Shown here one piece after another: positions 8,229 to 30,657 of a stretch of DNA of 41,968 nucleotides. The DNA is taken from positions 1 to 41,968 of the forward strand of contig PEAK01000036.1 of the NCBI GenBank assembly GCA_002753515.1, given 5' to 3'. The first letter of the stretch is position 1. Every line of letters begins with the position of its first letter. The stretch is from Magnetococcales bacterium (GTDB lineage Bacteria > Pseudomonadota > Magnetococcia > Magnetococcales > UBA8363). The position numbers were made by a program, and so were the translations under genes. The notes beneath the pieces were generated by a model. That model saw only the letters and a list, made by a program, of their open reading frames with translations. It searched no databases and had not been told where the DNA came from.

Positions 8229-8302
8229 AGAAATGTCTTGACGGAGGAGGGACGGTTCGTGGATCTTGGATGGGGGTGAAATAGAACACATAAGGGGAAA
8301 CC

Positions 8303-9610: not shown

Positions 9611-9682
9611 TCCAGACAGAGCGGCCTGATGACATTTTCTTGATCGGGCCACATCCAAGCCTTTCGGCTACGGGGAGATGTT

Positions 9683-13806: not shown

Positions 13807-14883
13807 ATGGACGCTTTCTCTTTCCAGACGACCAGCGTTTGGCCTTACCTGGTGTTCCAGCTTGGTGATAAACACTATGGTCTCAAGGCGGAAGTCGTGC
13901 GTCAGATCGTACGCCTGCCCGAGATCGCCCCCTTGGAGGAGCTGCCGCACCACGTTGCCGGTCTGGTTAATGTTCGCGGTCGACTGGTGCCGGTCGTCGA
14001 CCTGGACGCCCGAACGGGAGCTGCGGAAAGATCATGGAGTGTCTCCGACTTTCTCATTATCATTATTTTGCACGACGAGGTCGATGTTGCCGTCATGGCC
14101 AATCACATCGTTGGCATTCTCGATCTGCAACCCAGGCAATCCAAAGAGCTTCGTCTCCTCCTGGGGGACGAGGAGGGCAACGGCATGCGCCATGGTTTTC
14201 TGTCCGGTGTGGCCAGTATGGACAATCAGGTCGTCGCCCTTTTGGATCACCATACCCTTCTGTCACCGCTGGATCGGCAAACCATGACGGCCATCGGCGG
14301 CATGGATGAACTAGAACTGCGTACACGCGGACAAGCAGCGCATCCCCGCCGTTTCAGTCCTGGTTCCTCGGAAAGGGAACACAGCGTGTTTCGCGAGCGC
14401 GCCCGACGTTTGACGCACCCGTTGCGCGCTACGGACACGACGCTGGTGCAAGCCTTTGCCATCGTGCAACTGCATGAGACCCGGCTGGCCCTGGCCATGG
14501 AGACGGTGCGCGGATTTGTCACCACAACGCAAATGACGCCCATTCCATGTTGCCCGGGACACATCGCCGGCATCATGAGCCGCCGGGGGGAAATGGTGAC
14601 GCTGTTGGATGTGTCCAGACTCCTGGCCATTCCCATCAGTGCCACTCCCATGGGAAAAGCCGTGCTGGTGGAAGTCCATGAGGATGAGATCCTTGGTTTT
14701 TTAGTCCACCAAGTGGTCGAGGTCGTCTACCAGGATGCCGAAACCCGCTTTCTCCCGGGAGTTCAAGATGGGGGGCCGGATCATTGGCTGGGTTCATTAC
14801 GTTGGCAGGGAGATGTGTTGTCGGTCATTCATCCGGCGAGATTATTGTCGTCCCCTGAACTGGTCGTTGATCAAACGCCTTGA
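13807..14883 (+). CDS. tandem CheW adaptor protein
   Basis: 358 aa made of two CheW-like domains. The first spans about 10-155 (PYLVFQLGDKHYGL... IVRLPEIAPL... VAGLVNVRGRLVPVVDL) and the second about 215-350 (AFAIVQLHETRLALAM... MTPIPCCPGHIAGIMSRRGEMVTLLDV). The second keeps the GxxxxRGE-V-x-L-L-D core that docks onto receptors and CheA P5. CheW links receptors to CheA in hexagonal arrays. Wsp systems have two separate CheW genes (WspB and WspD). Here both appear fused in one chain, which could crosslink arrays or serve the two different receptors of this operon. The ATG follows the CheR stop directly; the next receptor begins 38 bases after its stop. Confidence 0.88.
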   Translation: MDAFSFQTTSVWPYLVFQLGDKHYGLKAEVVRQIVRLPEIAPLEELPHHVAGLVNVRGRLVPVVDLDARTGAAERSWSVSDFLIIIILHDEVDVAVMANHIVGILDLQPRQSKELRLLLGDEEGNGMRHGFLSGVASMDNQVVALLDHHTLLSPLDRQTMTAIGGMDELELRTRGQAAHPRRFSPGSSEREHSVFRERARRLTHPLRATDTTLVQAFAIVQLHETRLALAMETVRGFVTTTQMTPIPCCPGHIAGIMSRRGEMVTLLDVSRLLAIPISATPMGKAVLVEVHEDEILGFLVHQVVEVVYQDAETRFLPGVQDGGPDHWLGSLRWQGDVLSVIHPARLLSSPELVVDQTP

Positions 14884-14921
14884 GAATCATCCCTTTGACG
14901 GGTTGCGGAGTCCCTTGTCCC

Positions 14922-17075
14922 ATGAAAATAAAATTTAAACTGTCAAGAGTGATAACACAGGGGTTTCTATTGGCGGGGGTGCTGCCCGCGATTTGTATCA
15001 ACCTGTTCACTTATTTTGCCCTGACGCCCACCTTGAAGGGAACCGCCACGCATCAGCTCGCTGCTGTTCACCTGAGTAACGCCAGGGAGCTGGAAAGATA
15101 TTTCTCAAATATCACCGATCAGGCCATGACAAAGGCCGAAAATCTCATCATCGCTCAGTCCCTGGTGGAATTTGCCCGGGCCGTGGAGGGGATCGAGGCG
15201 GAATTGGGTCCCGGATTCGATCGGGAAAAAGAGTTGCGTACCAATCAATTACGCTCCCGCTACCACGAACTGGCAACCCGAACGCAAATGATTCCAGAGG
15301 ATGCCGTGAGTCAGTTCTGGCCACGCAGCCGTACCGGGTTGTTGTTGCAATCCCGCTATATCGGTGAGAATCTCCTCCCTGGTGGCAGCAGGGCCAAACT
15401 GGACGGCAATGCCAAGGATGGCCCCTATGGTGCGGCCCATCTGCGTTATCACCCCCTGTTGCGTAATTGTTTGCTGCGTTCCGGTTTTCATGATTTGCTG
15501 TTGATCGAACCCAAGGAATTCAGAATCGTTTATTCGATTCAAAAGGAACTTGATTTTGGCCTTAATTTAAAGACAGGCCCTCACGCCGGGAAATTGTTGT
15601 CGGAAGCTGTGGCCCAGGCCATGGCCCAAACCACTCCGGGCAAGGTTTTCTTCGCCGATTTTGAACCTTATCCACCCACTTTCAATCGTCCCAGTGGTTT
15701 TGTTGTCGTCCCGGTTTTCATGGATGGGCAAAAGGTTGGCGCCCTGGCGTTGCAGCTTTCCGTTGCCCCGATCGAAGCCATTACCCACAATGGGGAGCGT
15801 TGGCAAGAGATCGGTTTGGGTATGACCGGGGAGAGTTTCCTTGTTGGGCCAGACCATATTTTCCGCAGCAATATCCGCCTCATGCTTCAGGATCCCAAAA
15901 ATTCGCTCGACGCCCTTAGAAATCGCGGGGTGAACGAGGCCGTCCTGGCGAAAATACAGTACTATCATAATGCAACCTCTTATCTCCCCTGGACTTCCCC
16001 CCATGTGGATGAAGCGGTCCAGGGAATGCGGCATGCCGCCGAAGAGATGACCGATTATCTCGGGCGCAAGGTGTTGACCAATCATTCCCCGATCACCCTA
16101 CCCGGGGGGCAGAAATGGGCGCTCTTCACGACGATTTCTCTGGGTGATGCTTACCAATCGTTGTTTCTCATTCAATGGGGAATCGCCATCATCAGCGTGA
16201 TTATTGTTTTGTTGTTGTGGTTTTTCAGTCGGCGGATCGGCCTGGGCATCGTGTTGCGTCTGCAGGAATTGTCGCAAACCATCTCCTTGTTTCTCGAACA
16301 ATTGCGTGGCCGGGTTTCGCAACAGGAGCTGACCGCCAGTCAGCAGGCCTCATCCGTCAATGAAACCAACGTTACCCTGGCGGAACTGGACAGTTCGGCA
16401 CGAAAAACTGCGGAGCATGCCGCTGAAACGACCACCCTGGCTGAAAATTCCCGGGATTTCGTTGCTTCTGGCATTGGCCAGTTGGAATCCTTACGCAACA
16501 GCATGACCGACACCAAGGAGAGGGTTTCCCAGATTGCCAATCATATCCTTGAACTGAGTGAACAAACCGACCAAATCCGGGATATTTCGCGTTTGGTGTC
16601 TGATTTCGCCAATGAGACCAAAATGTTGGCTATGAATGCCGCCGTGGAAGCGGTACGCGCCGGGGAGCATGGCAAAGGATTTTCCGTCCTGGCCCTGGAA
16701 ACCCGCAAACTGGCCGATGAATCCAAATGGTCTACCAAACGCATCAATGCCCTGGTGGGCGAAATTCAAAAAGCGACCAATGCCACGGTGATGATTACCG
16801 ATGAAGGGAGCAAAACCATGACGAAGGGCGTCGAAATGGCCGAAAGATCGGTGGTCGTCCTGCATGAAATCGCCGAAGCCATGGAAACCGGCCTGGAACG
16901 AACCCAGCAGATTTCCCTGAATGCCAAACAACAATCCCTGGCAATCACGCAGGTTGTGGCTGCCATGAATGCCATCAATGCCGGAGCGCGGGACAATGAG
17001 GAGGGCCTGGCCCAGGTGAACGCGGGGATCCGTTCTTTGGACGAGGCAGCAGCCAAGCTCCGGGCTATTCTATGA
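14922..17075 (+). CDS. methyl-accepting chemoreceptor with dCache-like sensor
   Basis: 717 aa. Membrane segments at about 12-33 and 414-436 flank a periplasmic sensor of roughly 380 residues. The end of that sensor, MTGESFLVGPDHIFRSN at 301-317, matches the corresponding block of the first receptor, so both have related Cache domains. The cytoplasmic part is a coiled coil with the signalling tip FANETKMLAMNAAVEAVRAGE. There is no C-terminal CheR-binding pentapeptide. The frame is open back to a TTG that overlaps the tandem-CheW stop, but the ATG at 14922 is preferred because the hydrophobic segment then begins a few residues after a basic start (MKIKFKLSRV). Two receptors with different sensors in one operon suggest integration of two inputs by one CheA. 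Confidence 0.92.
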   Translation: MKIKFKLSRVITQGFLLAGVLPAICINLFTYFALTPTLKGTATHQLAAVHLSNARELERYFSNITDQAMTKAENLIIAQSLVEFARAVEGIEAELGPGFDREKELRTNQLRSRYHELATRTQMIPEDAVSQFWPRSRTGLLLQSRYIGENLLPGGSRAKLDGNAKDGPYGAAHLRYHPLLRNCLLRSGFHDLLLIEPKEFRIVYSIQKELDFGLNLKTGPHAGKLLSEAVAQAMAQTTPGKVFFADFEPYPPTFNRPSGFVVVPVFMDGQKVGALALQLSVAPIEAITHNGERWQEIGLGMTGESFLVGPDHIFRSNIRLMLQDPKNSLDALRNRGVNEAVLAKIQYYHNATSYLPWTSPHVDEAVQGMRHAAEEMTDYLGRKVLTNHSPITLPGGQKWALFTTISLGDAYQSLFLIQWGIAIISVIIVLLLWFFSRRIGLGIVLRLQELSQTISLFLEQLRGRVSQQELTASQQASSVNETNVTLAELDSSARKTAEHAAETTTLAENSRDFVASGIGQLESLRNSMTDTKERVSQIANHILELSEQTDQIRDISRLVSDFANETKMLAMNAAVEAVRAGEHGKGFSVLALETRKLADESKWSTKRINALVGEIQKATNATVMITDEGSKTMTKGVEMAERSVVVLHEIAEAMETGLERTQQISLNAKQQSLAITQVVAAMNAINAGARDNEEGLAQVNAGIRSLDEAAAKLRAIL

Positions 17076-17114
17076 TATTTTACAGGTATATTTATTGTAT
17101 CAATTATCATTATA

Positions 17115-18299
17115 ATGTCAGCACGCCCCAGCCACCTTCCTTCGCAAACGGTCGGAACCGTGAAATTCGAGGCCTTTCAATCCGGCAAGCTCCATCAGCG
17201 GTATCAGTACAAGAGCTTCCACCCTGCACCCATCAACCAGGAGTGGTCCTGGGACGACCCACGCATCGGTACGTTGCTGGAGCGGGCGTCCAAGGCGCTG
17301 GGCGAATTGAACGCCTTCACCATGATTGTGCCCGAGGTGGATCTGTACCTGCAAATGCACGTTCTCAAAGAGGCCAACCTTTCCAGCCGCATTGAGGGCA
17401 CCCGCACCGAGATGGATGAGGCGGTGCTGGAGGAAGAGGAAATCCTACCGGAACGGCGCAACGATTGGCGCGAGGTGCAAAACTACGTCCGCGCCTTGAA
17501 TGAGGCCATCGCCAGTCTACGTGAACTGCCCCTTTCTTTGCGTCTGTTGAAGCAGACCCACGCCACCCTCATGCAGGGGGTGCGCGGCGAACGGAAAACG
17601 CCGGGCGAGTTCCGCCGCAGTCAGAACTGGGTGGGTGGGGCCACCCTGGCCGACGCTGCTTTCATCCCGCCACACCACGACGACCTGCCCGATTTGCTGA
17701 GTGATCTGGAGGCCTTCTGGCACAACGGTGCTATCCTTGTGCCGCACCTCATCCGCTGTGCCCTTTCCCATTATCAGTTCGAGACCATTCACCCATTTCT
17801 CGACGGTAATGGCCGCATTGGTCGCCTGCTCATCACCCTCTATCTGGTAAGCCACGGACTGTTGGCCAAGCCCTCTCTTTACCTGTCCGCCCATCTGGAA
17901 AAACACCGGAGTACCTATTTCGACGCACTGACCCGGGTGCGGGAGTCCAACGATCTCGGCCACTGGTGTCGTTTCTTTCTCCAAGCCGTGGAGGAGACCG
18001 CCGAGAACGGCAAGGAGACCTTTCGCCAACTGTTGGTTCTGCGTCAGGAGATCGACGGACACATCGTCACCTTGGGACGACGGGCGGAGAATGGGCGGCG
18101 ATTGATTCAATACCTTTACCGACGTCCAGTGGTCAACATCGGGCAAGTGGCGTCCGAATTGGGACTCCAATACCAGGCCGCCAATCAACTGGTGGCGGCA
18201 CTTGGCGAGTTGAACTTGTTGGAGGAGGTCACTGGCTACCAGAGGAACCGCTTTTTCCGGTTTCGGCCCTATCTGGATATTTTCCAAGCCGAAAAATGA
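17115..18299 (+). CDS. Fic-domain protein (putative AMP-transferase)
   Basis: 394 aa. The Fic motif HPFLDGNGRIGR (226-237) is intact, with catalytic H226, D230 and R237. These enzymes usually transfer AMP from ATP to a hydroxyl of a target protein. An N-terminal Fic_N region carries S90-S-R-I-E94-G95, matching the auto-inhibitory (S/T)xxxE(G/N) motif, so the protein is likely self-restrained (class II). The C-terminal 80 residues look like a winged helix (VVNIGQVASELGLQYQAANQLVAAL). It interrupts an otherwise classic chemosensory operon, 39 bases after the second receptor, behind an AT-rich leader containing TATAAT at the start codon. With the Rpn gene behind it, it looks like inserted cargo. 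No role in chemotaxis is evident. Confidence 0.9.
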   Translation: MSARPSHLPSQTVGTVKFEAFQSGKLHQRYQYKSFHPAPINQEWSWDDPRIGTLLERASKALGELNAFTMIVPEVDLYLQMHVLKEANLSSRIEGTRTEMDEAVLEEEEILPERRNDWREVQNYVRALNEAIASLRELPLSLRLLKQTHATLMQGVRGERKTPGEFRRSQNWVGGATLADAAFIPPHHDDLPDLLSDLEAFWHNGAILVPHLIRCALSHYQFETIHPFLDGNGRIGRLLITLYLVSHGLLAKPSLYLSAHLEKHRSTYFDALTRVRESNDLGHWCRFFLQAVEETAENGKETFRQLLVLRQEIDGHIVTLGRRAENGRRLIQYLYRRPVVNIGQVASELGLQYQAANQLVAALGELNLLEEVTGYQRNRFFRFRPYLDIFQAEK

Positions 18300-18316
18300 A
18301 TATGGAATTCCTTATT

Positions 18317-18385
18317 GTGATTTCGCGCCACGAAAAGATAATAATGGAATTGTTATGGTGATTTCGCGCCACGAAAAGATAATAA
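18317..18385. repeat. two 28-bp direct repeats containing a near-palindrome
   Basis: The unit GTGATTTCGCGCCACGAAAA plus GATAATAA occurs at 18317-18344 and identically at 18358-18385 (period 41). Each copy contains TTTCG-CGCCA-CGAAA, an inverted repeat with a 5-base spacer. They lie between the Fic stop and the Rpn gene. Two such sites in tandem resemble an operator, perhaps for the Fic protein's own winged-helix domain, or are remains of an insertion. Function unproven. Confidence 0.6.
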
Positions 18386-18486
18386 GGAAAGCGTTGTAGT
18401 GAGCGGTGGGATTTCCATTTCCAAAACAGCCGAAATCCTTCACGATGCCTATGGATCAGCAAGGCAGAGCATTCGAGGGCGTTACC

Positions 18487-19080
18487 ATGACCAATCCCGA
18501 CAATCAGAGCCAGCCGACAGAGTATGACTCACCGTGGAAAGAGATCTTGAAGGCGTACTTCAAAGATTTTTTGGCATTTTTTCTTCCAGAGGCTCATGGC
18601 GGTATTGATTGGCAGCGTGCCCCGGAGTTTCTGGACAAAGAACTGGACCGGATTACGAAGGAGGCAAAGGCTATCAATCGCCGCGTGGATTTGCTGGTCA
18701 AAGTATGGTTGATCCATGGTGATGAACTTTGGGTGTTGATCCACGTCGAAGTTCAGGGGGGGCGGGATGCCGATGAGGAGAATCAAGAGATGCCGTATAT
18801 CACGAGCGTGGAGCGGATTGGTGAGGAAAAAGGGAGATTGCTGGGCATCCAGATTGGCGAGCAGAGAGGCATCCAGATTGGCGAGCAGAGAGGCATCCAG
18901 ATTGGTGAGCAGAAAGGGGAGGCTGCGATTCTAACCCGCCTGCTGCATCACCGTTTCGGTGCTGTACCCGACTGGGCCAGCGAAAAAATCGCCAAGGCCG
19001 AGCTGCCCTCCTTGGAAGAGTGGAGCCTTCGCATCTTTGATGCCCAGTCCCTGGACGATATTTTCTCGGACAAGACATGA
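18487..19080 (+). CDS. Rpn-family PD-(D/E)XK nuclease-like protein, internally deleted
   Basis: 197 aa from the ATG at 18487 (GAGG eight bases upstream; earlier in-frame starts are weaker). The N-terminal part matches Rpn/'PD-(D/E)XK nuclease family transposase' proteins: YDSPWKEILKAYFKDFLAFF, then EFLDKELDRIT, INRRVDLLVKV and WVLIHVEVQG with the D..ExQ catalytic residues. Full-length relatives are usually well over 250 residues. Here the frame jumps from VEVQGGRDADEE straight to NQEMPYITSVERIG, the segment that normally lies after the rest of the nuclease domain, so the middle has been removed in frame. Three 8-residue repeats (GIQIGEQR) follow, then a DUF4351-like tail (LTRLLHHRFGAVPDW). 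It is probably inactive as a nuclease. Confidence 0.75.
   Translation: MTNPDNQSQPTEYDSPWKEILKAYFKDFLAFFLPEAHGGIDWQRAPEFLDKELDRITKEAKAINRRVDLLVKVWLIHGDELWVLIHVEVQGGRDADEENQEMPYITSVERIGEEKGRLLGIQIGEQRGIQIGEQRGIQIGEQKGEAAILTRLLHHRFGAVPDWASEKIAKAELPSLEEWSLRIFDAQSLDDIFSDKT
18844..18915 (+). repeat. three 24-bp tandem repeats within the Rpn gene
   Basis: The unit GGCATCCAGATTGGCGAGCA plus GAGA occurs twice exactly (18844-18867, 18868-18891) and a third time with two changes (18892-18915). It encodes GIQIGEQR-type octapeptides. Such in-frame repeats in the linker of Rpn proteins are common and copy number can vary by slippage without breaking the frame. Confidence 0.9.
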
Positions 19081-19109
19081 CACCATCGACCAAGTTACCA
19101 CTATAAAAT

Positions 19110-21488
19110 ATGATCAAGGACCGAGAACTTCGCAACCTGTTTCGCTCCGAAAGTACCGAGCGATTGGAAAAGCTTGGGGCCGGACTATTACAATTGGAGC
19201 AAAACCCCCAAGATTCTACGACTATACAAGGGTTGCTACGCGATGCCCACAGCCTTAAGGGTGCGGCACGCATGCTTGGTGTCACAGATGTTGAAAAAAT
19301 GGTGCATTGCTTTGAAGAGGTGCTACGACCCTGTTTTGAGGGACGCGTTGTTGTCAATCGCGAACTGGCGGACAGGCTCAATCGTGGCCTTACCGATGTC
19401 GAAACCTTGATACAGGCTTCCATTACAGGGAAGGAAAGTACCCTGTCGGTTCAGGAGGCTACAAATCGTTTGCGTGGCTTGAAACCAATAGCCCGGGAAC
19501 ATGGCACCTTGCAGCCTCCCTCTGCACCTGTGACGGAACCAGCCCGGGTCTATCAACATTCTCCTCAACAAAATCAGCATGTTGTAAAGATTGTGGCGGA
19601 ATCTCCCCTCTTGTCGATACCGGATATCGTTACTAAACCAATGGCACCGGATGTCGTTGCGAAACCGTCGGCAGCGGATGTCGTTACAAAACCATCGGTA
19701 GCGGATGTCATTACAAAACCGGGGGAGAAGGAATCTCGAACACCTGCGGAAGGCGCCACCACGGGTGAATCGGTTGAGCGTATCCGAACCATGCGCGTCG
19801 ATGCCGACAAGTTGGACCGTCTGTTGAGCAAGGTTGGCGAATTGCTTGTCGTGCGCAACCGGGTACAGCGGCGTCTCGAAGACGTCAATGAGTTGATTGC
19901 GCAGTGGGGATTGTTACAACGGCAGGGAATGACGCAAAGGCGCAACCTGGAGGATGCGCACCGGCCCATGGAGCATGTGGATCGGGGATTGGAGAGCCTG
20001 CGTCGGGAACTATTCGAAGATAATACCATGCTGGAACTGGTGGTCGGGGAGTTGGAAGAGGGGATTTGGAACCTGCGCCTCATGTCCCTGTTTGAGTTGT
20101 TCCGCATGTTTCCCAGGATGGTACGGGAGATGTCCCGACAACAGGGTAAGGATGTCCGTTTGCTGCAGGAGGGCATTGAAACCACTGTCGACAAGCACAT
20201 TGTGGAGGCTTTGAAGGATCCATTGACGCACTTGGTACGCAATGCCCTGGATCACGGGTTGGAGACGCCAGGGGAACGTCTGCATGCGGGCAAACCCCCT
20301 CAGGCAACGCTTTGGCTCAAGGGTCGAAGCTTCACCGACAGGGTGGAAATCGAGGTGGCCGATGATGGAAAAGGTTTGAATACCGCCGCTATATTCACAA
20401 AAGCCCAGGCCGAGGGATTGCTGCATGGGGATGAGACCCCCGAGCTTTCCGACAACCGGTTGATCACGATCCTGTGTACTCCAGGTTTTACCACGGCCAA
20501 GTATATTACCGACATTTCCGGGAGGGGGATTGGGATGAATGTGGTCCGGGAGCATGTGGAACAGCTCAACGGTCAATTGCAACTCATCAACCAGCCCGGC
20601 CGAGGATGTCGCTTCATTCTTTCCATTCCCAACGCACTCTCTTCGACTCCCGTATTTGTCATTTCCCTGGGAAGACAACGTTTCGTTATTCCCATGGAGT
20701 GTGTACAATTGGTACGGCGAGTCAGTTTGGATGCCATCTTTCACCTGGATGGGCGCGATACCCTGGATCTGGATGAAAGGCCCGTTGCCGTCAGCAGCTT
20801 GGAGCGCTTGCTCGGCTTTCCCGACACGATGCGGGAGCGCCAGGAGTCACGGCATCGTCCCTGCATCCTCTTGCAGGTGGGTGGTGAGCGTCTTGGACTG
20901 TTGGTGGATGAACTGGTTGATCAGCAAAAGTTGGTGCTTAAACCATACGCATCACTTTTGCGACGGGTACCCAATGTGTCGGGCAGTACCATCCTGGGAA
21001 CTGGAGAGGTCTGCATGGTATTGTCGGCGGAGGACCTGATGGCAACCGCGAAAAAAGGCGGTCACGCAACGGCCATGGCGTCTCCGGCTGCCGATAAAGG
21101 GACACCTGCCAACACGGAAGAGCGGCGCCGGGTTATCCTGTTGGTGGAAGATTCCATAACCACCCGGGTTCAGGAAAAAAGGATTCTTGAAGGGGCCGGC
21201 TATCAGGTGATCACAGCCGTCAATGGCATGGAAGCCCTGGAGAAACTGAGCCAATATCGCGTTGATGCCGTGGTCAGCGATGTCGAAATGCCGGAAATGG
21301 ACGGTTTGACGCTGACTGAAAAGATTCGCGCCTCGGGAGCCTTGCAAAAACTGCCGGTTATCCTGGTTACTTCTCGCGCTTCGCAGCAGGATCAACAGAA
21401 TGGTCTCATCGCCGGCGCCAATGCCTATCTGACAAAAAGTGGTTTTCAGCAGGATCACTTGATTCAAACCCTGCGGAGACTGACATGA
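19110..21488 (+). CDS. CheA-REC hybrid chemotaxis kinase (WspE-like)
   Basis: 792 aa. An HPt domain (1-105) carries the phospho-accepting H47 in DAHSLKGAA. A linker holds four 9-residue repeats (172-207). The dimerisation helices start at about 228 (VDADKLDRLLSKVGELLVVRN). The ATPase domain has the N box with N378 (VRNALDHG), the DDGKG box (418-422), the TTAKYITDISGRGIG lid (461-475) and REHVEQLNG. A CheW-like P5 domain occupies about 512-645. The C-terminal receiver (674-792) has the E-D pair, D724, T754 and K776. No CheY-binding P2 domain is obvious. CheA fused to a receiver is typical of Wsp/Frz-type systems, where the receiver tunes or sinks phosphate. The stop overlaps cheB by 4 bases. 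The start lacks a ribosome site and follows the Rpn insertion by only 29 bases. Confidence 0.95.
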   Translation: MIKDRELRNLFRSESTERLEKLGAGLLQLEQNPQDSTTIQGLLRDAHSLKGAARMLGVTDVEKMVHCFEEVLRPCFEGRVVVNRELADRLNRGLTDVETLIQASITGKESTLSVQEATNRLRGLKPIAREHGTLQPPSAPVTEPARVYQHSPQQNQHVVKIVAESPLLSIPDIVTKPMAPDVVAKPSAADVVTKPSVADVITKPGEKESRTPAEGATTGESVERIRTMRVDADKLDRLLSKVGELLVVRNRVQRRLEDVNELIAQWGLLQRQGMTQRRNLEDAHRPMEHVDRGLESLRRELFEDNTMLELVVGELEEGIWNLRLMSLFELFRMFPRMVREMSRQQGKDVRLLQEGIETTVDKHIVEALKDPLTHLVRNALDHGLETPGERLHAGKPPQATLWLKGRSFTDRVEIEVADDGKGLNTAAIFTKAQAEGLLHGDETPELSDNRLITILCTPGFTTAKYITDISGRGIGMNVVREHVEQLNGQLQLINQPGRGCRFILSIPNALSSTPVFVISLGRQRFVIPMECVQLVRRVSLDAIFHLDGRDTLDLDERPVAVSSLERLLGFPDTMRERQESRHRPCILLQVGGERLGLLVDELVDQQKLVLKPYASLLRRVPNVSGSTILGTGEVCMVLSAEDLMATAKKGGHATAMASPAADKGTPANTEERRRVILLVEDSITTRVQEKRILEGAGYQVITAVNGMEALEKLSQYRVDAVVSDVEMPEMDGLTLTEKIRASGALQKLPVILVTSRASQQDQQNGLIAGANAYLTKSGFQQDHLIQTLRRLT
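19623..19730 (+). repeat. four 27-bp degenerate tandem repeats in cheA
   Basis: The repeats encode DIVTKPMAP, DVVAKPSAA, DVVTKPSVA and DVITKPGEK in the linker between the HPt domain and the dimerisation domain. This Pro/Lys-rich linker sets the reach of the HPt domain, so a change in copy number could alter phosphotransfer. Confidence 0.85.
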
Positions 21489-22546
21489 TCCGGGTCGTGG
21501 TAGTGGATGATTCCCCCGTTGCCTTGAAAATATTGCAAGCGATCATCGAAGCCGATGGCGATATTGTCGTAGCGGCTACTGCGGCGGATGGCGTCTTGGG
21601 GTGGCAGTGTATCCAGGAGGTTCACCCGGATGTGGTCTGTACTGATTTCCACATGCCCAACATGAATGGTCTCTCATTGGTGCAGACGGTCATGTCGCAA
21701 CATCCTTTGCCAATGCTGGTGATCAGTGTATCGGTGGAGGAGGATAGCAACAGCACCACCATCCTGCAGGTGTTGCAGGCAGGGGCCATGGATATTCTGG
21801 CCAAACCACCGGGAGGTCCCAATATTCGCAATCATCGTTGGGGAAGGCAACTTCGGCAAAAAATTCGCGTCTTGGCCAATGCCAAGCCGTTGAATCTGAT
21901 ACGCCGCCCAGCCCTTATGGAACCCAAGAGCGATATTCCCCCGAAAAAGGCTATTGCCAATACCGGAGGGATTATTGCCCTGGGGGCATCCACTGGCGGT
22001 CCCCTGGCGTTGACGCGTATTCTTCAGGCTTTGCCTCGAGATTTTTCCTGGCCCGTGATCTGCGTGCAACATATTGGTTCCTCTTTTTTGCCGGGTCTGG
22101 TCACCTGGCTCGGCAAGGCAACGCCCCTGCCGATCATGCACGCCCGAACCGGTGATCGTCCCCGCCCTGGCGTAGTCTATTTCCCCCCCCCTGCCGCAGA
22201 CCTTTCGGTTTCGGAAATGGGGCAATTCCGCTGCCACCCCCACGACCCCGGTCAGGATGGCACGAGCTTATTTTCCATCGACCTGACCTTTAAATCTTTG
22301 GCGCGCTGTTTTCAATCCTCTGTTTTAGGAATACTCTTGACGGGAATGGGAAGTGATGGCGCCAGAGGTTTATTGGACATTCGTCGGCAGGGCGGGGCCA
22401 CCATTGCCCAGGATGAAACCTCTTCGGTGGTTTTTGGCATGCCCCAACAGGCCATTGAACTTGGAGCCGCCCAGACTGTCCTCTCACTCGATGACATTCC
22501 CGGGGCCATACTCACCTGGTGCAAAACCGGGAGATTATTATGCTGA
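21485..22546 (+). CDS. CheB-type receptor methylesterase (WspF-like)
   Basis: 353 aa. A receiver domain (1-125) has D8/D9 and phospho-acceptor D54 in CTDFHMPNMNG; the conserved Thr is replaced by Ser in VISVS. The methylesterase domain (about 160-345) shows the catalytic triad: S169 in LGASTGG, H196 in VQHIG and D291 in GMGSDGA. The enzyme removes methyl groups from receptor glutamates added by the CheR-TPR protein and thus gives adaptation. Its ATG lies in the cheA stop (ATGA), and its own stop overlaps the next gene by 7 bases, so cheA, cheB and the REC-REC-GGDEF gene are translationally linked. No CheD, CheZ or CheY gene is present in the operon. Confidence 0.95.
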   Translation: MIRVVVVDDSPVALKILQAIIEADGDIVVAATAADGVLGWQCIQEVHPDVVCTDFHMPNMNGLSLVQTVMSQHPLPMLVISVSVEEDSNSTTILQVLQAGAMDILAKPPGGPNIRNHRWGRQLRQKIRVLANAKPLNLIRRPALMEPKSDIPPKKAIANTGGIIALGASTGGPLALTRILQALPRDFSWPVICVQHIGSSFLPGLVTWLGKATPLPIMHARTGDRPRPGVVYFPPPAADLSVSEMGQFRCHPHDPGQDGTSLFSIDLTFKSLARCFQSSVLGILLTGMGSDGARGLLDIRRQGGATIAQDETSSVVFGMPQQAIELGAAQTVLSLDDIPGAILTWCKTGRLLC

Positions 22547-23784
22547 ATATTCTCTTGGCAGATGACAGTCTGGTGTTTGCAAAGCTTTTAAAGCGCCGCC
22601 TGGAATATGATCAAAGATATCGATTGGTCCACGTCGTGGATGATCAGCAATTGCAGTTGGCACTTGCGAATGGACATGAATTTTTACTCGCTTTCGTAGA
22701 ACTGTCCCTTCCCGGTGCCCGGGATGGCAACGGAATTCGCCAAATCATTGCCAGGCAGATCCCCGTAGTGGTTTTCACCTCCCTATTTGACAATCATTCC
22801 GATTCCTTGCTGTTACAGGATTATGAAATCGTCGACTATGTGACCAAAAAATCCATGAATCTGGATCCCATCGTCGAGATTATCATGCGAATGGAAAAAA
22901 ATAGTGATTATCCACTATTGGTCGCTTATGGTTCCCGCGCCCAGGAAGATGGGATCTCGGGACCGTTGCATCGGTATCGTTTTCCGATCTATATGGCGCA
23001 TGACGAACGGGAAGCCATGCAAACACTGACCGTCCATCCAGAAATTTGCCTGGTTGTGATCGATTATGCCACACCTGGTTGTGATGGTCTGAAGCTCCTG
23101 GAATGGATCCGCCAAGACCTGAAGCGAACCCGGGACGAGCTGGTGGTTATCGGCATATCTTCTCAAGGGGATGAGGCCTCGGTACGTTTCATCAAGGAGG
23201 GTGCGAATGATTTCCTCGCCAAACCATTCCAACGTGAAGAATTGATCTACCGGGTACACCACAATATACAACAACTCGAAAACCAGCGAACACTGGATGC
23301 CGTGACCTGCATGGATGCTGTAACCCGGTTGGCCAATGCACGGTATTTTTTGGATGTCGGGGCCACACTCCACAGCAATGCGGTTCGTGAAAACATGTCT
23401 GTTACCCTTGCTATCTGTGCCATTGATGGACTTGAATCATTGACGGACAGCTATGGGGAATATGCGCGCATGTTGGTATTCCAAAACATTGGCGAATTGT
23501 TGGTCGGCGCTTTTCGCAAAACCGATCTGGTGGCCAGGCTTGACGACGAAACCTTCGGTATATTGATTGCCAATCCACAACCAGATAATACATTCATGGT
23601 GTTCTCGCGCTTGAAGAAACGTATTGAATCCCAACAAATACCATACGAAGATGATTTTTTTCAAATCAAGGTGAGCATGGGCATCACCGCTCAATTGCTT
23701 GGATCTTTGGCAGACATGATGACCCACGCCAGAGCGGTCCTCAGACAAGTCCAGCGAGAAGGGGGCGGTATACTGTCAGGGTAA
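22540..23784 (+). CDS. REC-REC-degenerate GGDEF protein, probable c-di-GMP receptor (PopA-like layout)
   Basis: 414 aa from the ATG at 22540, inside the cheB stop. Receiver 1 (1-120) has the acidic pair but Glu (E54, VELSLPG) where the phospho-acceptor Asp should be, so it cannot be phosphorylated normally and may mimic the phosphorylated state. Receiver 2 (125-245) is complete, with D175 and K228. The C-terminal domain keeps the GGDEF fold (DAVTRLANARYF at the usual DxLTxLxNR position), but the signature is DDETF at 335-339, so cyclase activity is unlikely. The inhibitory site R326-K-T-D329 is retained exactly five residues upstream. Caulobacter PopA has this same REC-REC-GGDEF layout with an intact I-site and acts by binding c-di-GMP. 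It occupies the WspR position but probably reads c-di-GMP rather than makes it. Confidence 0.9.
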   Translation: MLNILLADDSLVFAKLLKRRLEYDQRYRLVHVVDDQQLQLALANGHEFLLAFVELSLPGARDGNGIRQIIARQIPVVVFTSLFDNHSDSLLLQDYEIVDYVTKKSMNLDPIVEIIMRMEKNSDYPLLVAYGSRAQEDGISGPLHRYRFPIYMAHDEREAMQTLTVHPEICLVVIDYATPGCDGLKLLEWIRQDLKRTRDELVVIGISSQGDEASVRFIKEGANDFLAKPFQREELIYRVHHNIQQLENQRTLDAVTCMDAVTRLANARYFLDVGATLHSNAVRENMSVTLAICAIDGLESLTDSYGEYARMLVFQNIGELLVGAFRKTDLVARLDDETFGILIANPQPDNTFMVFSRLKKRIESQQIPYEDDFFQIKVSMGITAQLLGSLADMMTHARAVLRQVQREGGGILSG

Positions 23785-24010: not shown

Positions 24011-24070
24011 AACTTTTCGTAAGTACCCTCAAACTGGCGGGTTGCTTTTTTGAGGAACCCGATTGAACCC

Positions 24071-27000
24071 ATGAGTGACACAGGCAACGAGCCCAAGCGC
24101 ATACTCCTCATCGACGATCAATATCTCACTTATAAATATTTGGATCGGATGCTTGACGTCGACGATCTAAAACTTTTTTTTTGCCAGGATCCCCGCCAGG
24201 CATGCCTGGAAGCCGAAAAAATTCGACCCATGGTCATCCTGTTGGATTTGGTGATGCCCAATGTGGACGGAATGACCTTGCTACGTCAACTACGCGAACA
24301 TCGTGTCACCAGCAACATCCCCATCATTCTCCTGACCTCCATCGACGAACCCCAGATCAAGGCGGAAGGCTTTGCGGCTGGCGCCAGCAATTATCTGGTT
24401 AAATTCCCTGATCGGGTGGAAATGATTGCCCGCCTGCGTTACCACGCCCATACCTTCGTGCGTATGGCACGTAAATCCAGGGAGTGTGAAGCGTGTTCCG
24501 ACATTCTTCAATCCGATATCAAGGGCATCGTTTTGCTGGATGTCGTCTCGAAAACCATTATCGATGCCAACGAAACATTTTGTCAGATTATCGGGTTTGA
24601 GCGCCGTGCCTTGCTGGGTCATGAGTTGGGCGAATGTGTCCGCTTGGAGGATCGGGATTCGATACGTCGCGTCGTCAATCGGATCCCGGAACCGGATCAT
24701 CGCGTCTATGACATTTTTCTCCGACACATTTCAGGGAGTGACATTCGGGTACGCTTTTGCGTGACCATCGACACCCGGTTTCAGGGTGGTGATAAAATCT
24801 CCGTCTTCTCCTTCGTCATGGATCGTTCCGATACTTCGGATGCTTCTGATTCGGACTACAGTACGCAATTTCGCCTGCATGCCGATATGATTCCCGGAAT
24901 GGTATGGATGTGTAATCGGGAGATGAAACGCACCTTCTTCAATGATGGTTGGCTGATTTTTACCGGTAAAATCATGGCGCGGGAATTGGACGATGGCTGG
25001 CTGGAGGGCGTTCATCCCGAAGACGCCGAGGATTTGCGGACCCGTTTCGCCGAGGTTTTTGCCAAGCGCCAACGTTTTTCCATGGAATATCGTTTACGCA
25101 CCAAGGATGGGTCTTATCGCTGGGTGTATGACACGGGCTTCCCTTTTTTTGCCCAGGGGGAAAATTTTCTCGGATATACGGGCAGTTGTGTAGACATCAA
25201 TGAGCGTAAGGGCTTTGAAGAACGACTGCGCAATTTTAACATGGAATTGGAGACTCGTATTCATGAGCGGACCATCGAATTGCAAATGGAGGTGGAAGAG
25301 CGAAAAAAAGCACAGATGCGAGAGCGCCATGCGCGTGAAACGCAGAATACCATAAGCAACATGTTGCGTATTGCCCTCCTCTCCATCCCGTTGAAAAAAA
25401 AGCTGGAAACGGCACTGAGCATGATCATCAACGCCCCCATCGGCAGCCTGTTGGCCAGAGGGGCCATCCTGCTCAAGGATCGGGATCAGGAATCCTTATC
25501 GATGGTGGCGCAGCGCGGATTCAGTGAGCTGTCCCCCCCACCCTGCGCCCATATCAAATATGGTCAGTGTCTGTGTGGTATCGCCGCCCGTCGTCACGAA
25601 AACATATTTGCCACACAGATCGACGGACTGACCGACATTCGTCCCCCGGATGGGGAAATCCATGGGCACTATTGCCTGCCCATTCTTTCTGAAGATCGGT
25701 TGCTGGGGGTTCTGGCCATCTATGTCAACCATCGAACCGAGCATGATCCAGACGAGGAACGCAATTTTCAAGCATTCAGCAACACGCTGGCCACTATTCT
25801 GGAACAAAGTCGGACCGAAGAGTTGCAACGGGAAAAAATGGCTGCCGAAGCGGCCAATCGCGCCAAAAGTCAATTTTTGGCCACCATGAGTCATGAAATT
25901 CGTACCCCCCTGAACGGCATCCTGGGTATGACCAGTCTGCTATTGACCAGCGAAATGACCGACGAGCAGCGCCGGCGTCTGCTGCAAATTCACCAATCAG
26001 GCAATAACTTACTTAACATTCTCAATGATATTCTCGACATCTCCAAAATTGAAGCCGGTATGATGATCGTGGAGTCGCGCCCATTTGTACTTAACGAGGT
26101 CATCCGGGTGCTGTCCAATCTGCTGGAACGCAAGGTTGCGGAAAAGAAATTGATCTACAGTGTCACGATCCATCCCGATGTACCCCAATTTGTCAAAGGG
26201 GATTCGGTTCGACTGGGGCAGGTATTGAATAATTTGCTGGCTAATGCTGTTAAGTTCACTCAGGAAGGTCGGATCACCCTGAGTATTACCATGGATGATC
26301 TGCAATTTCATCAGGGTCTGATACGTTTCACCGTCGAGGATACCGGCATCGGTATCTCCAGACAGGCCCTCGCTGGATTGTTTCAACCATTCACCCAGGC
26401 TGATGAATCGACTACCCGGAAATATGGCGGAACCGGTCTGGGTTTGGCTATCAGCCAACGATTGGTGGAAATGATGGGGGGGAGAATCGAAGTGGACTCG
26501 GAACCGGGTCGGGGTAGCCGCTTCTCTTTTACCGTACGTCTCGGGATCACCCGGGAATCGCCCTCATCATCCATACCCGATCCGGTTTCGCCCAAACAGC
26601 TCGTCGTACAAACCCGCCGCGTCCTCAAGGGGGGACGCGTGTTGCTGGTGGAAGACGATCCCATCAACATTGATGTGGCCCGCGACACCTTGGAGCAAGT
26701 GGGTTTGCAGGTCGATGTGGCCCGTAATGGTGTCGAGGCATTGGCAACCATCATCGGAGATGGCGTTTCCAATACCCAACGTTATGATCTGGTGCTCATG
26801 GATCTCCTGATGCCGCGCATGGACGGGTTTGACGCCACCCGTCTGATCCGCAAACATCTCACCAAGGAACAACTACCCATCATAGCCATGACTGCCAGTG
26901 CCATGAGTGGTGAGCGGGAACGGTGCTTGAGTGCCGGCATGAATGACCACCTGCCCAAACCGGTCGAACTGGAAATGCTCTTTACCGTCCTGTCCCGATG

Positions 27001-27724
27001 GATACAACACACACCCAACGAATCGGAAGAAAAATCTGTCCCCATGTCATCTGCGGGTCAAAGGACCAGGGGAGATGATCTCGCGGGTGCCGATAACTTC
27101 GACGCCATCAAAGGCTTCAAAACGATCGATGTGGTTACAGCAACGCGCAAATTTGGCCATAATCCCAAATTTTATTTGAAGCTGCTCCGCGATTTTTGCA
27201 AGGGGTACGCCGATACCGGCAAAAGCATACGGGAGGCGTTGGCTCGGGGTGCCTTTGAAGATGCACGTCGACTGGCCCATACCATGAAAGGGGTATCGGG
27301 CAACATTTTGGCCCGTGATCTTTCTCAAGCAGCCCAGCAATTGGAAATCATTATCGCTTCCGATCCAAACACCGAGGTGTGCAACGAGCCCTTGCGGCAT
27401 TTCAACGACGCATTGACAAAAGTACTTCGGGAACTTGATCAGATCGCTCAGGAACATGGCCTTGAGGTCGACCCCCGGGAGGATGTGTCTATCGGCGATT
27501 TACCCACGGGTCTGGGCCAACTGGTTGTTGATCTGCAAAACAACAACGCACGCGCCCTGGATCTGGCGAGGCCGGTCAGTACCTGGCTCAAGGCAAAGGG
27601 ATTCGCGGAAGAACATGACCATTTCGTCACAGCGATGGACAAATTTGACTTCAAAGGGGCTTTGCAACAACTGCAGACGGTTTCCGGCAAGCTTGGCTTC
27701 AATATTTTGGAAGGCTCTCCATAA
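24071..27724 (+). CDS. hybrid histidine kinase, REC-PAS-PAS-GAF-HisKA-HATPase-REC-HPt
   Basis: 1217 aa with no membrane segment, so a cytoplasmic phosphorelay hub. Receiver 1 (8-130; D59, K111) is close to that of the diguanylate cyclase at 6903 (same YLVK-P arrangement). PAS domains span about 140-250 and 265-380, followed by a coiled coil (380-425). A GAF domain follows (430-580) with a C500-L-C502 pair. HisKA has H608 in [10 protein letters not shown]. The ATPase domain has ANAVKFT, DTGIG and [10 protein letters not shown]. Receiver 2 (855-980) has D911 and K963, and an HPt domain (1010-1125) has H1070 in AHTMKG. A further 70-residue C-terminal helical module is shared with other kinases of this locus. 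The ATG at 24071 is chosen over a TTG at 24050. Its stop and the next start share TAATG. Confidence 0.92.
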   Translation: MSDTGNEPKRILLIDDQYLTYKYLDRMLDVDDLKLFFCQDPRQACLEAEKIRPMVILLDLVMPNVDGMTLLRQLREHRVTSNIPIILLTSIDEPQIKAEGFAAGASNYLVKFPDRVEMIARLRYHAHTFVRMARKSRECEACSDILQSDIKGIVLLDVVSKTIIDANETFCQIIGFERRALLGHELGECVRLEDRDSIRRVVNRIPEPDHRVYDIFLRHISGSDIRVRFCVTIDTRFQGGDKISVFSFVMDRSDTSDASDSDYSTQFRLHADMIPGMVWMCNREMKRTFFNDGWLIFTGKIMARELDDGWLEGVHPEDAEDLRTRFAEVFAKRQRFSMEYRLRTKDGSYRWVYDTGFPFFAQGENFLGYTGSCVDINERKGFEERLRNFNMELETRIHERTIELQMEVEERKKAQMRERHARETQNTISNMLRIALLSIPLKKKLETALSMIINAPIGSLLARGAILLKDRDQESLSMVAQRGFSELSPPPCAHIKYGQCLCGIAARRHENIFATQIDGLTDIRPPDGEIHGHYCLPILSEDRLLGVLAIYVNHRTEHDPDEERNFQAFSNTLATILEQSRTEELQREKMAAEAANRAKSQFLATMSHEIRTPLNGILGMTSLLLTSEMTDEQRRRLLQIHQSGNNLLNILNDILDISKIEAGMMIVESRPFVLNEVIRVLSNLLERKVAEKKLIYSVTIHPDVPQFVKGDSVRLGQVLNNLLANAVKFTQEGRITLSITMDDLQFHQGLIRFTVEDTGIGISRQALAGLFQPFTQADESTTRKYGGTGLGLAISQRLVEMMGGRIEVDSEPGRGSRFSFTVRLGITRESPSSSIPDPVSPKQLVVQTRRVLKGGRVLLVEDDPINIDVARDTLEQVGLQVDVARNGVEALATIIGDGVSNTQRYDLVLMDLLMPRMDGFDATRLIRKHLTKEQLPIIAMTASAMSGERERCLSAGMNDHLPKPVELEMLFTVLSRWIQHTPNESEEKSVPMSSAGQRTRGDDLAGADNFDAIKGFKTIDVVTATRKFGHNPKFYLKLLRDFCKGYADTGKSIREALARGAFEDARRLAHTMKGVSGNILARDLSQAAQQLEIIIASDPNTEVCNEPLRHFNDALTKVLRELDQIAQEHGLEVDPREDVSIGDLPTGLGQLVVDLQNNNARALDLARPVSTWLKAKGFAEEHDHFVTAMDKFDFKGALQQLQTVSGKLGFNILEGSP

Positions 27725-28851
27725 TGCTCCCCACTTCTCAGCGTCGCATTCTCCTTGTTGACGACGATGCTCAAAGCATTCGACTGTTGCTGGAGGTATT
27801 GCGCCCCCTTAATCTGGACGTGCTCGTGTCCACCAATGGCCAATCGGCCTTGGAAATTATCGCCCAACAAACCCCTGACCTGATCCTATTGGATATTTTG
27901 ATGCCCGAATTGGATGGTTACGATGTTTGTCGGGCCATTAAAACCAATATCGAAACCAGAGACATACCCGTTATCTTCATTTCCGCCATGTCGGAAACAG
28001 AGGATGAAAGTGCCGGTCTGAAGCTGGGAGCGGTGGATTACATCACCAAACCGTTTCATTTCGATATAGTCCGTTCCCGGGTGCAAACTCACCTTGAACT
28101 GCGCACAGCCTACCGGGAGTTGGCTCGGATCAATCATAACCTATTGGAAGAAAGACGTCTCATTGAACGGGTATTGGCCAATACCCGGGAATCGGAACAG
28201 TTTGACCGACGCTACCTCGCCACCTATATCGCCCCCAAGGAAATTTCCATGGGGGATATCCTCCTGGCAGCCTTTCGCCCGGACGGCACGCAGCATGTCA
28301 TGTTGGGAGATTTTACCGGACATGGGCTGACCGCCGCCATTGGTGGTCCTTTGGTAGCCGATCTTTTTTATGCCCGCACCGCCCGCAATGATGGTATGGG
28401 GGGTATCGTTGAAGAAATTAATTTAAAGTTGTTTCGCACGCTGCCCGAAGGGATGTTCATGGCGGCCATTTTTTTGGAGATCTCCCCGGATCGTCGGAGG
28501 GTCACCCTGTGGAACTGTGGCATGCGTGAGGCTTATTTGTTTCGCGATGGACGTTGCCAGGAAAAACTTTCCTCAACGCATTTCCCCCGTGGATTGATGC
28601 AGGTTTCCGAACCTTTGGGGATTGAAATAGAAGTGCGTCCCGATGACAAACTTTATCTCTATAGCGATGGTTTCGTTGAGGAAATGGATGCGGAAAAGCG
28701 CATGTTCGGTGCGGAACGGTTGCTGCAACTGCTGCAAAAGATTGCCCGTGGTGAGGAAACATTTGATTTTTTAGCCGATACGTTGGCTCGTTACCGGCCC
28801 AAGGGAGAACCTCAAGGCGACGATATGTTCATGGTAGAGGTACGCTGTTAA
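27724..28851 (+). CDS. REC-PP2C (SpoIIE/RsbU-like) response-regulator phosphatase
   Basis: 375 aa. A receiver (5-125) has D57 in LLDILMPELDGYDVC and K109. A coiled coil (125-160) links it to a PPM/SpoIIE-type Ser/Thr phosphatase domain (165-375). The metal-binding motifs are visible: MGDILLA (D178), LGDFTGHG (D196), LYLYSDG (D315) and GDDMFMVEV (D366/D367). Such proteins dephosphorylate STAS-domain antagonists in partner-switch systems when their receiver is phosphorylated. A STAS gene follows after one repeat element, which makes it the obvious substrate. The start overlaps the preceding hybrid kinase stop by one base, suggesting that kinase as phosphodonor. The TAA stop lies within the terminal inverted repeat of the downstream element. 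Confidence 0.93.
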   Translation: MLPTSQRRILLVDDDAQSIRLLLEVLRPLNLDVLVSTNGQSALEIIAQQTPDLILLDILMPELDGYDVCRAIKTNIETRDIPVIFISAMSETEDESAGLKLGAVDYITKPFHFDIVRSRVQTHLELRTAYRELARINHNLLEERRLIERVLANTRESEQFDRRYLATYIAPKEISMGDILLAAFRPDGTQHVMLGDFTGHGLTAAIGGPLVADLFYARTARNDGMGGIVEEINLKLFRTLPEGMFMAAIFLEISPDRRRVTLWNCGMREAYLFRDGRCQEKLSSTHFPRGLMQVSEPLGIEIEVRPDDKLYLYSDGFVEEMDAEKRMFGAERLLQLLQKIARGEETFDFLADTLARYRPKGEPQGDDMFMVEVRC

Positions 28852-29055
28852 ACCGCAACCAGTACGGGATATGTAGTTTTTCAGCGTCCAGTACGGGATA
28901 TGTAGTTTTTCAGCGTCATTCCCGCGAAAGCGGGAATCCAAAAAGCTAGGGAATGGTGTGTAGGTTTCCTGGATCCCCGCTGAAGCCTGCCCTCGAATGC
29001 TTTAATCGGGGGCGGGGATGACAATAACTACACATTCCAAGATGGCTGCGGTTTA
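28849..29055. repeat. dispersed hairpin repeat, copy 3, with internal duplication and insertion
   Basis: This has the same ends and first hairpin as copies 1 and 2 (left TAAACCGCAACCA; right complement TAAACCGCAGCCA), but it is 207 bp long. Near the left end a 29-bp unit starting CCAGTACGGGATATGTAG is exactly repeated (28859-28887 and 28888-28916). In the second hairpin the loop is replaced by about 30 bases including GCCCTCGAATGCTTTAATC. The left terminal repeat supplies the TAA stop codon of the phosphatase gene. Confidence 0.85.
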
Positions 29056-29116
29056 GGAGCCATAAGATACCTTTTGTCACCCGTTTCCTGGAAGATGGAT
29101 ACCCCAGTGATCTTTA

Positions 29117-29479
29117 ATGGACGAACGAAGAATGATACCCTACGATAAAGTTATCACGGAACAAAATGGGACGGTTCTGATCATTCATCTATCGGGCTGT
29201 TTTGGCTATAAACTGATCCCCAAGTTTCGCGATGCCTATAAGGGTTTCGCGACGCATACGTCTGTAAGAATCGACCTGGAACGCGTCTATCAGATCGAAA
29301 GCTCCGCCCTGGGAGCACTTATGGTCATGCGCAATTTTTTTGGAGGCGACAAAGCCGATATTTCGCTGGTCAATCCTTCGAGTGAAATTCGTAAAATTCT
29401 TGAACTATCACAATATCATCGGGTCTTCAAAATAACAAACGGTCCCCACCCGTCCCAAAGTGGGGAAGCGGTAGCCTGA
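29117..29479 (+). CDS. STAS-domain protein (anti-sigma-factor-antagonist type)
   Basis: 120 aa, a single STAS domain. The pattern V.I..LSG.......F...Y.....H..VRIDLERVYQIESSALGALM matches SpoIIAA/RsbV-like proteins, with Ser62/Ser63 of IESSALG at the regulatory phosphorylation site (usually DSSGLG). Such proteins are phosphorylated by an anti-sigma or kinase partner and dephosphorylated by a PP2C enzyme. The REC-PP2C gene lies just upstream, separated only by a repeat element. No small HATPase kinase (RsbW-like) is present nearby. The next gene encodes a degenerate REC-kinase. The ribosome site before 29117 is poor; an ATG five codons later (29132) is an alternative start. Confidence 0.85.
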   Translation: MDERRMIPYDKVITEQNGTVLIIHLSGCFGYKLIPKFRDAYKGFATHTSVRIDLERVYQIESSALGALMVMRNFFGGDKADISLVNPSSEIRKILELSQYHRVFKITNGPHPSQSGEAVA

Positions 29480-29529
29480 CGGCAATGGCGTCGATGGAAA
29501 TTCATGCTCGGGAGGTGGAAGGTCCAGGG

Positions 29530-30657
29530 ATGAGCCAGTCAATCAAAAAGTCAACAGTCCTGATCGTCGATGACATGCCCAACAATATTCGGACGTTGGC
29601 AGAAATATTGAGTGATGATTACCAGGTACTTGTCGCAACCAATGGACAGGATGCCCTGAGCATTATCGCCTCGGAGGAGATTGCGGTTGTTCTGCTTGAT
29701 GTCATGATGCCCGAGATGGATGGCTATGAGGTCTGCAAACGAATCAAAGGGTCGCCTTCGGGCAGAAAGATTCCCATTATTTTTGTTACCGCCCTGAACG
29801 AAAAATTGGATGAGGCGCACGCCTTGTCTCTCGGGGGGATTGACTTCATGACGAAGCCGGTCCATGGAGCAGTGGTGCGTGCAAGGGTCCGCAACCACTT
29901 GGCCATGGCTGACATGATGCGGACCCTGGAGGAGCAAAAAAACCAGATCGAAGAATCGGCTGCTTTCAAGGAAGAGGTGAATCATATCTATCAGACCGAC
30001 CTCAGGGGACCTCTGGATCATATCGTCAGTATGATCAACATGCTGGCCTGGAATACCAGCCTGACCAAGCAACAGGAGGAGTTGGTCCTCCCCATTCTGC
30101 GCTATACCTATAAACTTTCCAATCTCATCAATTTTTCTATCGAACTCCACAAAATATCCCGAGGACAATACCTGTGTAAGTTTACCAGTTTTGACATTCT
30201 GGCCCTGATTGACGATTTTAAAACCATCGAGGGCGATTTTCTCAAAAAGAGGGGGTTCAATCTGGAAATCCTCCTTGATAACAGCCCCAGACGCGAGAAC
30301 CATGCCTTCAAGGTACGGGGTGATGTCCGTCTGTGTTACTCGATCATCAACGCCATTCTGATGAACATATTCAATGTTTCCGGTCAAGGGGACAAGGTGC
30401 GCATTGTTTTGGGAAGTGTTGAAATAGATGGTAGCCGCTTGGCCTGCGTGCAGTTCCATACCCGACATCTCTTCGTTTCACAATCCCCGGAATCAGCCCA
30501 GAAAAAACTACCCATTGGGAAAAAAGATGAAATGCGGTGGGAGTACGACCTTTACGCTGCTTCACGCATGATGAGAATTCAACAAGGCAATTTGGATATG
30601 GAGACTTCTCGTGAAACCGGAACCATGATCGCTCTAATTTTTCAGCTCCCGAACTGA
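29530..30657 (+). CDS. REC-pseudo-histidine-kinase
   Basis: 375 aa. The receiver (8-125) is complete: D57 in [16 protein letters not shown]87 and K109. What follows has the length and helix pattern of HisKA plus HATPase_c, but every catalytic hallmark is gone. The usual SHELRTPL reads QTDLRGPL (155-162), with Thr156 in place of the phospho-accepting His. The ATPase N box is [11 protein letters not shown], no DxGxG box exists (VQFHTRHLF instead), and the GLGL lid is replaced by [10 protein letters not shown]. The protein should bind neither ATP nor carry phosphate on His. It may be a receiver-controlled scaffold, for example holding the STAS protein encoded just before it. The ATG at 29530 has a purine-rich GGAGGTGGAAGG leader and is preferred to 29485. 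Confidence 0.85.

Follow-up and report, generated by a model that had tools for sequence, protein, structure and literature searches.

Campylobacter jejuni CbrR is a REC-REC-GGDEF protein of 414 aa with a variant active site (SAEKI) and a variant I-site (KGRD), and the binding of c-di-GMP at this I-site was shown by DRaCALA and mutation in a study that also cites a reported interaction of CbrR with CheA (PMC8779298). A later study found that CbrR binds c-di-GMP and has no cyclase activity in vitro (PMC10790790). CbrR bound c-di-GMP and also GTP, so a protein with a degenerate active site need not be restricted to c-di-GMP as its ligand. PopA, a c-di-GMP receptor, joins two receivers to a catalytically dead GGDEF domain with a retained RxxD, and its diversification is reported to have taken place alongside that of PleD within the Alphaproteobacteria (PMC10333796). 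The Wsp system combines an MCP, CheR-TPR, CheW, CheA-REC and CheB with a GGDEF response regulator (WspA-F, WspR).

Here we analyse a REC-REC-GGDEF protein encoded at the end of a Wsp-like gene cluster in a 41,968-nt stretch of Magnetococcales DNA (the window). We propose, with a probability of about 0.62, that this terminal protein is catalytically dead and probably blind to phosphorylation, and that it acts as a putative c-di-GMP receptor within the cluster.

The chemosensory cluster and its head gene

All genes of the cluster, from 6903 to 23784, lie on the + strand, and by gene content it is a Wsp-like chemosensory operon, in which MCP, CheR-TPR, CheW, CheA-REC, CheB and a GGDEF regulator stand together:

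6903-8228, + strand: head gene, REC-PAS-GGDEF of WspR type, with intact GGDEF motif and I-site (RTTD) (sequence motifs, match to WspR)
8303-9610, + strand: substrate-binding protein, SsuA/TauA-like, with a twin-arginine-type leader (weak family match)
9683-12295, + strand: MCP with a dCache sensor (Pfam)
12292-13806, + strand: CheR-TPR, WspC-like (Pfam)
13807-14883, + strand: double CheW, CheW-CheW (Pfam)
14880-17075, + strand: second MCP (Pfam)
17115-19080, + strand: Fic protein (from 17115), then DUF4351 protein (from 18406) (Pfam)
19110-21488, + strand: CheA-REC hybrid kinase, WspE-like, Hpt and REC residues present (Pfam, residues)
21485-22546, + strand: CheB, WspF-like, receiver residues present (Pfam, residues)
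22540-23784, + strand: terminal gene, REC-REC-GGDEF, 414 aa, with pseudo-REC1 (E54), pseudo-REC2 (D175 kept, acidic pair lost), degenerate GGDEF (DDETF) and I-site residues R326-D329, R357 and R283
23515-23526, + strand: RKTD, primary I-site motif, residues 326-329 (residue numbering; invariant in four orthologues)
23542-23556, + strand: DDETF in place of GG(D/E)EF, residues 335-339 (alignment)

The terminal gene is real and is conserved in four species at the end of one putative operon, where its ATG overlaps the stop of the CheB gene by 7 nt. It was found in four of the eight genomes of the genus, with protein identities of 100, 91, 71 and 60% and the same surrounding gene order in all four carriers, and is absent from the other four, three of which are 95-99% complete. 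The orthologue set used below is made up of these four proteins, all within one genus.

The sequence-only reading had placed the terminal protein in the role of WspR, which would call for a CheA-phosphorylatable receiver controlling an active GGDEF domain. By sequence, the terminal protein lacks both of these, whereas the protein that heads the same cluster has both. The receiver of the head gene matches WspR at 2.4e-30 compared with 2e-14 for PleD, and its receiver residues are intact. Since this receiver is of WspR type and both REC and GGDEF are intact, the WspR of the cluster, if there is one, is the head gene. The head gene occurs in exactly the same four of eight genomes as the terminal gene, and the two flank one syntenic run in genomes G005 and G007. 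We consider it quite likely that the head gene encodes a CheA-controlled c-di-GMP writer.

The Fic and DUF4351 genes look like an insertion into the operon, since the second MCP adjoins CheA in G005 and G007; a DUF4351 gene also lies between these two genes in G006. In three genomes, the gene before the dCache MCP encodes the substrate-binding protein, from which the receptor may receive a ligand of sulfonate or nitrate type. No active orthologue was found in the slot after CheB, and the active sister proteins do not lie beside che genes. In related operons of more distant Magnetococcales (L074, L077 and L080; CheB 39-47% identical), all three slots inspected hold a REC-histidine kinase after CheB.

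Upstream of the operon lies a phage-type integrase (2792-4039, - strand). No tRNA was found in the window, a search for phage families gave nothing specific, and no plasmid match reached 35% identity. Downstream, a PAS/GAF hybrid kinase with receivers and Hpt, a REC-SpoIIE phosphatase, a STAS protein and a REC protein (24050-30657) are conserved beside the operon in G006 and G005.

The two receivers of the terminal protein

Pfam recognizes receivers (PF00072) and a GGDEF domain (PF00990) in the terminal protein. REC1 indeed carries Glu at the phospho-acceptor position, as had been read from the sequence; this residue, Glu54, stands against Asp in nearly all relatives, and the equivalent of T80 is lost in two of the four orthologues. 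The second receiver had been called intact, which is true of D175, S207 and K228, all three present and invariant in the four orthologues, but not of the acidic pair, which reads AYG, AYG, AFA and VDA in the four orthologues compared with VDD or VED in nearly all relatives. In receiver chemistry, this pair binds the metal ion (PMC12632262). A true receiver combines the acidic pair, the acceptor Asp, Thr/Ser and Lys; because REC1 has Glu as its acceptor and REC2 is without its metal-binding pair, neither receiver should take up phosphate, and canonical phosphorylation has very probably been lost in the terminal protein. In many regulators, though not in every one, Glu at the acceptor position can mimic phosphorylation, and for some pseudo-receivers such mimicry has been disproved (PMC12632262); Glu54 may mimic phospho-Asp. 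Of the motif [Y/F]xGPx[R/K]R, through which Cle-type pseudo-receivers bind c-di-GMP (PMC10333796), only a partial and non-conserved form, ISGPLHR, was seen in REC2.

These observations bear directly on the earlier proposal of a coincidence detector, in which CheA would phosphorylate D175 of REC2, c-di-GMP would bind the I-site, and both would be needed for output. In its favour stand the invariance of D175, S207 and K228 and the presence of Hpt and receiver residues in CheA, yet the Mg-binding acidic pair is gone from all four orthologues, unlike in nearly all active relatives, REC1 has its Glu and its partial loss of T80, and the head gene offers CheA an intact WspR-type receiver as target. 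With parts of the phosphotransfer site missing from both receivers, we regard a coincidence detector as quite improbable, and the terminal protein as probably gated by ligand only.

Cyclase domain and I-site

The GGDEF domain of the terminal protein scores 75 bits, compared with 129-185 for nearly all other GGDEF domains of the same genome. Residues 335-339 read DDETF, in agreement with the sequence-only reading, and the motif takes the forms DDETF and EDDAF across the orthologues. Beyond the motif, the catalytic residues of the sister clade (D294, K299, N302, D311, G335, G336 and E338) are all replaced in all four orthologues, with D294A, N302T/S/V and D311M/T/V and with K299 lost throughout. 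Every orthologue has lost the metal Asp, the Asn and Asp that contact guanine and, in the C-terminal helix, the Lys and the acidic residues. Because an active diguanylate cyclase relies on GG(D/E)EF together with metal- and guanine-binding residues, and all of these are lost, the cyclase is almost certainly dead. A residual, non-canonical diguanylate cyclase, as argued for other variant GGDEF motifs, would find precedent in motifs such as AGDEF, which can be active (PMC3974145), and in CbrR, with which a low level of c-di-GMP was seen in E. coli (PMC8779298). However, the losses here extend past the motif to the metal, guanine and C-terminal-helix residues in every orthologue, which leaves residual activity extremely improbable.

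The dead domain is nevertheless maintained, since its pairwise dN/dS among the four orthologues is 0.11-0.17, as low as that of the receivers, with dS saturated beyond the closest pair. Pseudogene decay was ruled out by these values, well below 1 even though dS is saturated for the distant pairs, and by the four full-length orthologues. AlphaFold2 predicts an ordered GGDEF fold with a mean pLDDT of 86.6, and the solved structures nearest to it are PleD with c-di-GMP, DgcR and WspR.

Within this domain, R326-K-T-D329 lies exactly at the RxxD-to-GGDEF distance, as the sequence-only reading had stated, and the comparison of orthologues that it had suggested came out in its favour: RKTD is invariant in all four while the catalytic motif is dead in all four. 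Few invariant stretches of the domain are as long as the one that reads AFRKTD. R283 aligns with residue 198 of WspR chain 3bre (R198), which we take to be a secondary I-site residue. R357 aligns with R390 of PleD, whose I-site residues have been described (PMC7288161), and all four residues (R283, R326, D329 and R357) are present in all four orthologues.

RxxD by itself is unremarkable, being present in 33 of the 35 canonical GGDEF domains of the same genome, and RxxD alone was dropped as evidence for I-site function. The weight lies in its invariance across the four dead orthologues, since active relatives often lose it. The thirty active relatives compared, which come from the Magnetococcales and from other Pseudomonadota, have GGEEF in 30/30 cases and RxxD in 15/30, so RxxD is needed for neither fold nor catalysis; the dead clade shows the reverse pattern. 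In the tree, all four dead proteins come out as a single clade (100/100), with a stem of 1.44 changes per column, beside active Magnetococcales REC-REC-GGEEF enzymes with RxxD (joint group 100/97). In the sister group 70 columns of the GGDEF domain are invariant, and the four dead proteins all keep 32 of them (46%); within this set of 70, the I-site residues are kept in 4/4 cases and the catalytic residues in 0/7, and the hypergeometric value of 0.039 for the I-site is modest evidence, its columns having been chosen partly after seeing the data. Among active relatives, no residue tracks RxxD more closely than R283 (13/15 with RxxD compared with 1/15 without), an association that reflects just 2-3 independent events on the tree, for which a phylogenetically corrected test has no power.

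RxxD is also the ancestral state on the branch of the dead clade, and therefore its retention could be passive. On this rests a reading of the terminal protein as a ligand-free scaffold or decoy, its fold kept for protein-protein contacts, e.g. constitutive docking of CheA through a Glu-locked receiver, and its I-site an ancestral leftover. Such a scaffold would agree with RxxD being the default in this genome, with the loss of all enzymatic and phosphotransfer chemistry, and with the capacity of an acceptor Glu to mimic phosphorylation in many, though not all, regulators (PMC12632262). Yet along the long stem the catalytic residues drifted and all four I-site residues did not, active relatives frequently dispense with RxxD, and the conserved run around it is among the domain's longest; we judge the scaffold unlikely, although worth keeping in view. 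The comparisons among the four orthologues and with active relatives favour selection on c-di-GMP binding, short of proving it. Because catalysis is dead, the I-site is kept and active relatives show the opposite pattern, the terminal protein is probably a c-di-GMP receptor, and c-di-GMP is likely to be bound at its predicted I-site. With a dead GGDEF and an RxxD, it has the motif signature of the degenerate-GGDEF c-di-GMP receptors PopA, CbrR and PelD.

Two further proteins of the same genome are of note. An active REC-REC-GGEEF paralogue (L020, 1474-2724, - strand) has the opposite pattern, with catalysis intact and the I-site lost (GKTA). Another degenerate GGDEF protein (L051, 7614-8678, - strand) carries GDDRF with RGID, and its N-terminal part reads like a cyclic-nucleotide-binding domain, making it a second candidate c-di-GMP receptor.

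Proposed working and comparison with known systems

If the terminal protein is a c-di-GMP receptor, the chemoreceptor array would control CheA-REC, which would phosphorylate the WspR-type receiver of the head gene, and the phosphorylated REC-PAS-GGDEF protein would make c-di-GMP. The messenger, probably as an intercalated dimer, would then bind the terminal I-site through R326, D329 and R357 together with R283 of the neighbouring subunit. Binding would change the oligomeric or docking state of the terminal protein, whose pseudo-receivers would engage or release a partner, which could be CheA, CheB, the head cyclase or a motility or surface target. Feedback on the array as its output is a tentative suggestion and unlikely as it stands; also unlikely is a self-monitoring Wsp-like system, with array, writer and dedicated reader in one operon and the product level fed back onto CheA/CheB or the writer. 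If true, the proposal would mean that an operon producing a second messenger also encodes a former response regulator that now serves purely as a sensor of it, and that writer and reader together form a compact chemosensory unit. The dead clade, with catalysis dead and I-site kept, also offers a clean natural contrast to active relatives often without an I-site, in which the requirements of the I-site, including the role of R283, could be studied.

By sequence, the nearest named relative of the terminal protein is C. jejuni CbrR. The CbrR model (NF050064) is its best NCBIfam match at 1.7e-51, compared with 1.4e-27 for PleD, and covers it in full length and domain order (residues 3-408 on model 4-407), as for the broad CbrR-type REC-REC-GGDEF subfamily. 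Since all 18 aligned relatives match this model, active ones included, and the terminal protein scores 175.5 bits against an equivalog cut-off of 600, the model marks a subfamily and not orthology. The closest solved relative of its REC-REC part is the structural-genomics REC-REC/GGDEF regulator 3luf/3mf4 (4.4e-33, 31-32% identity), of which the receivers only are solved, and for this part PleD is a far poorer match than either 3luf or the CbrR model. The description of the terminal protein as PopA-like therefore stands for the layout, REC-REC with a dead GGDEF and an I-site, while specific kinship with PopA by descent is not supported by these matches. We read the terminal protein as probably CbrR-like by descent and PopA-like in its expected mode of action, as a putative functional analogue.

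The terminal protein shares with CbrR its domain order, its length and a variant active site. It differs in that CbrR is reported as an orphan with two predicted phospho-Asp residues, whereas the terminal protein has E54, is without the REC2 acidic pair and belongs to a chemosensory operon. PopA of Caulobacter works in a cell-cycle context, recruiting a partner in a pathway to the degradation of CtrA, unlike the chemosensory context here, and the terminal clade groups with active Magnetococcales REC-REC-GGEEF proteins in a tree without PopA, which was compared by description. The cluster departs from Wsp in that its WspR-type cyclase has a PAS domain and stands at the head with a substrate-binding protein, while the slot after CheB, which in other Magnetococcales holds a REC-histidine kinase reminiscent of Burkholderia WspH (PMC8552884), is occupied by the dead REC-REC-GGDEF protein.
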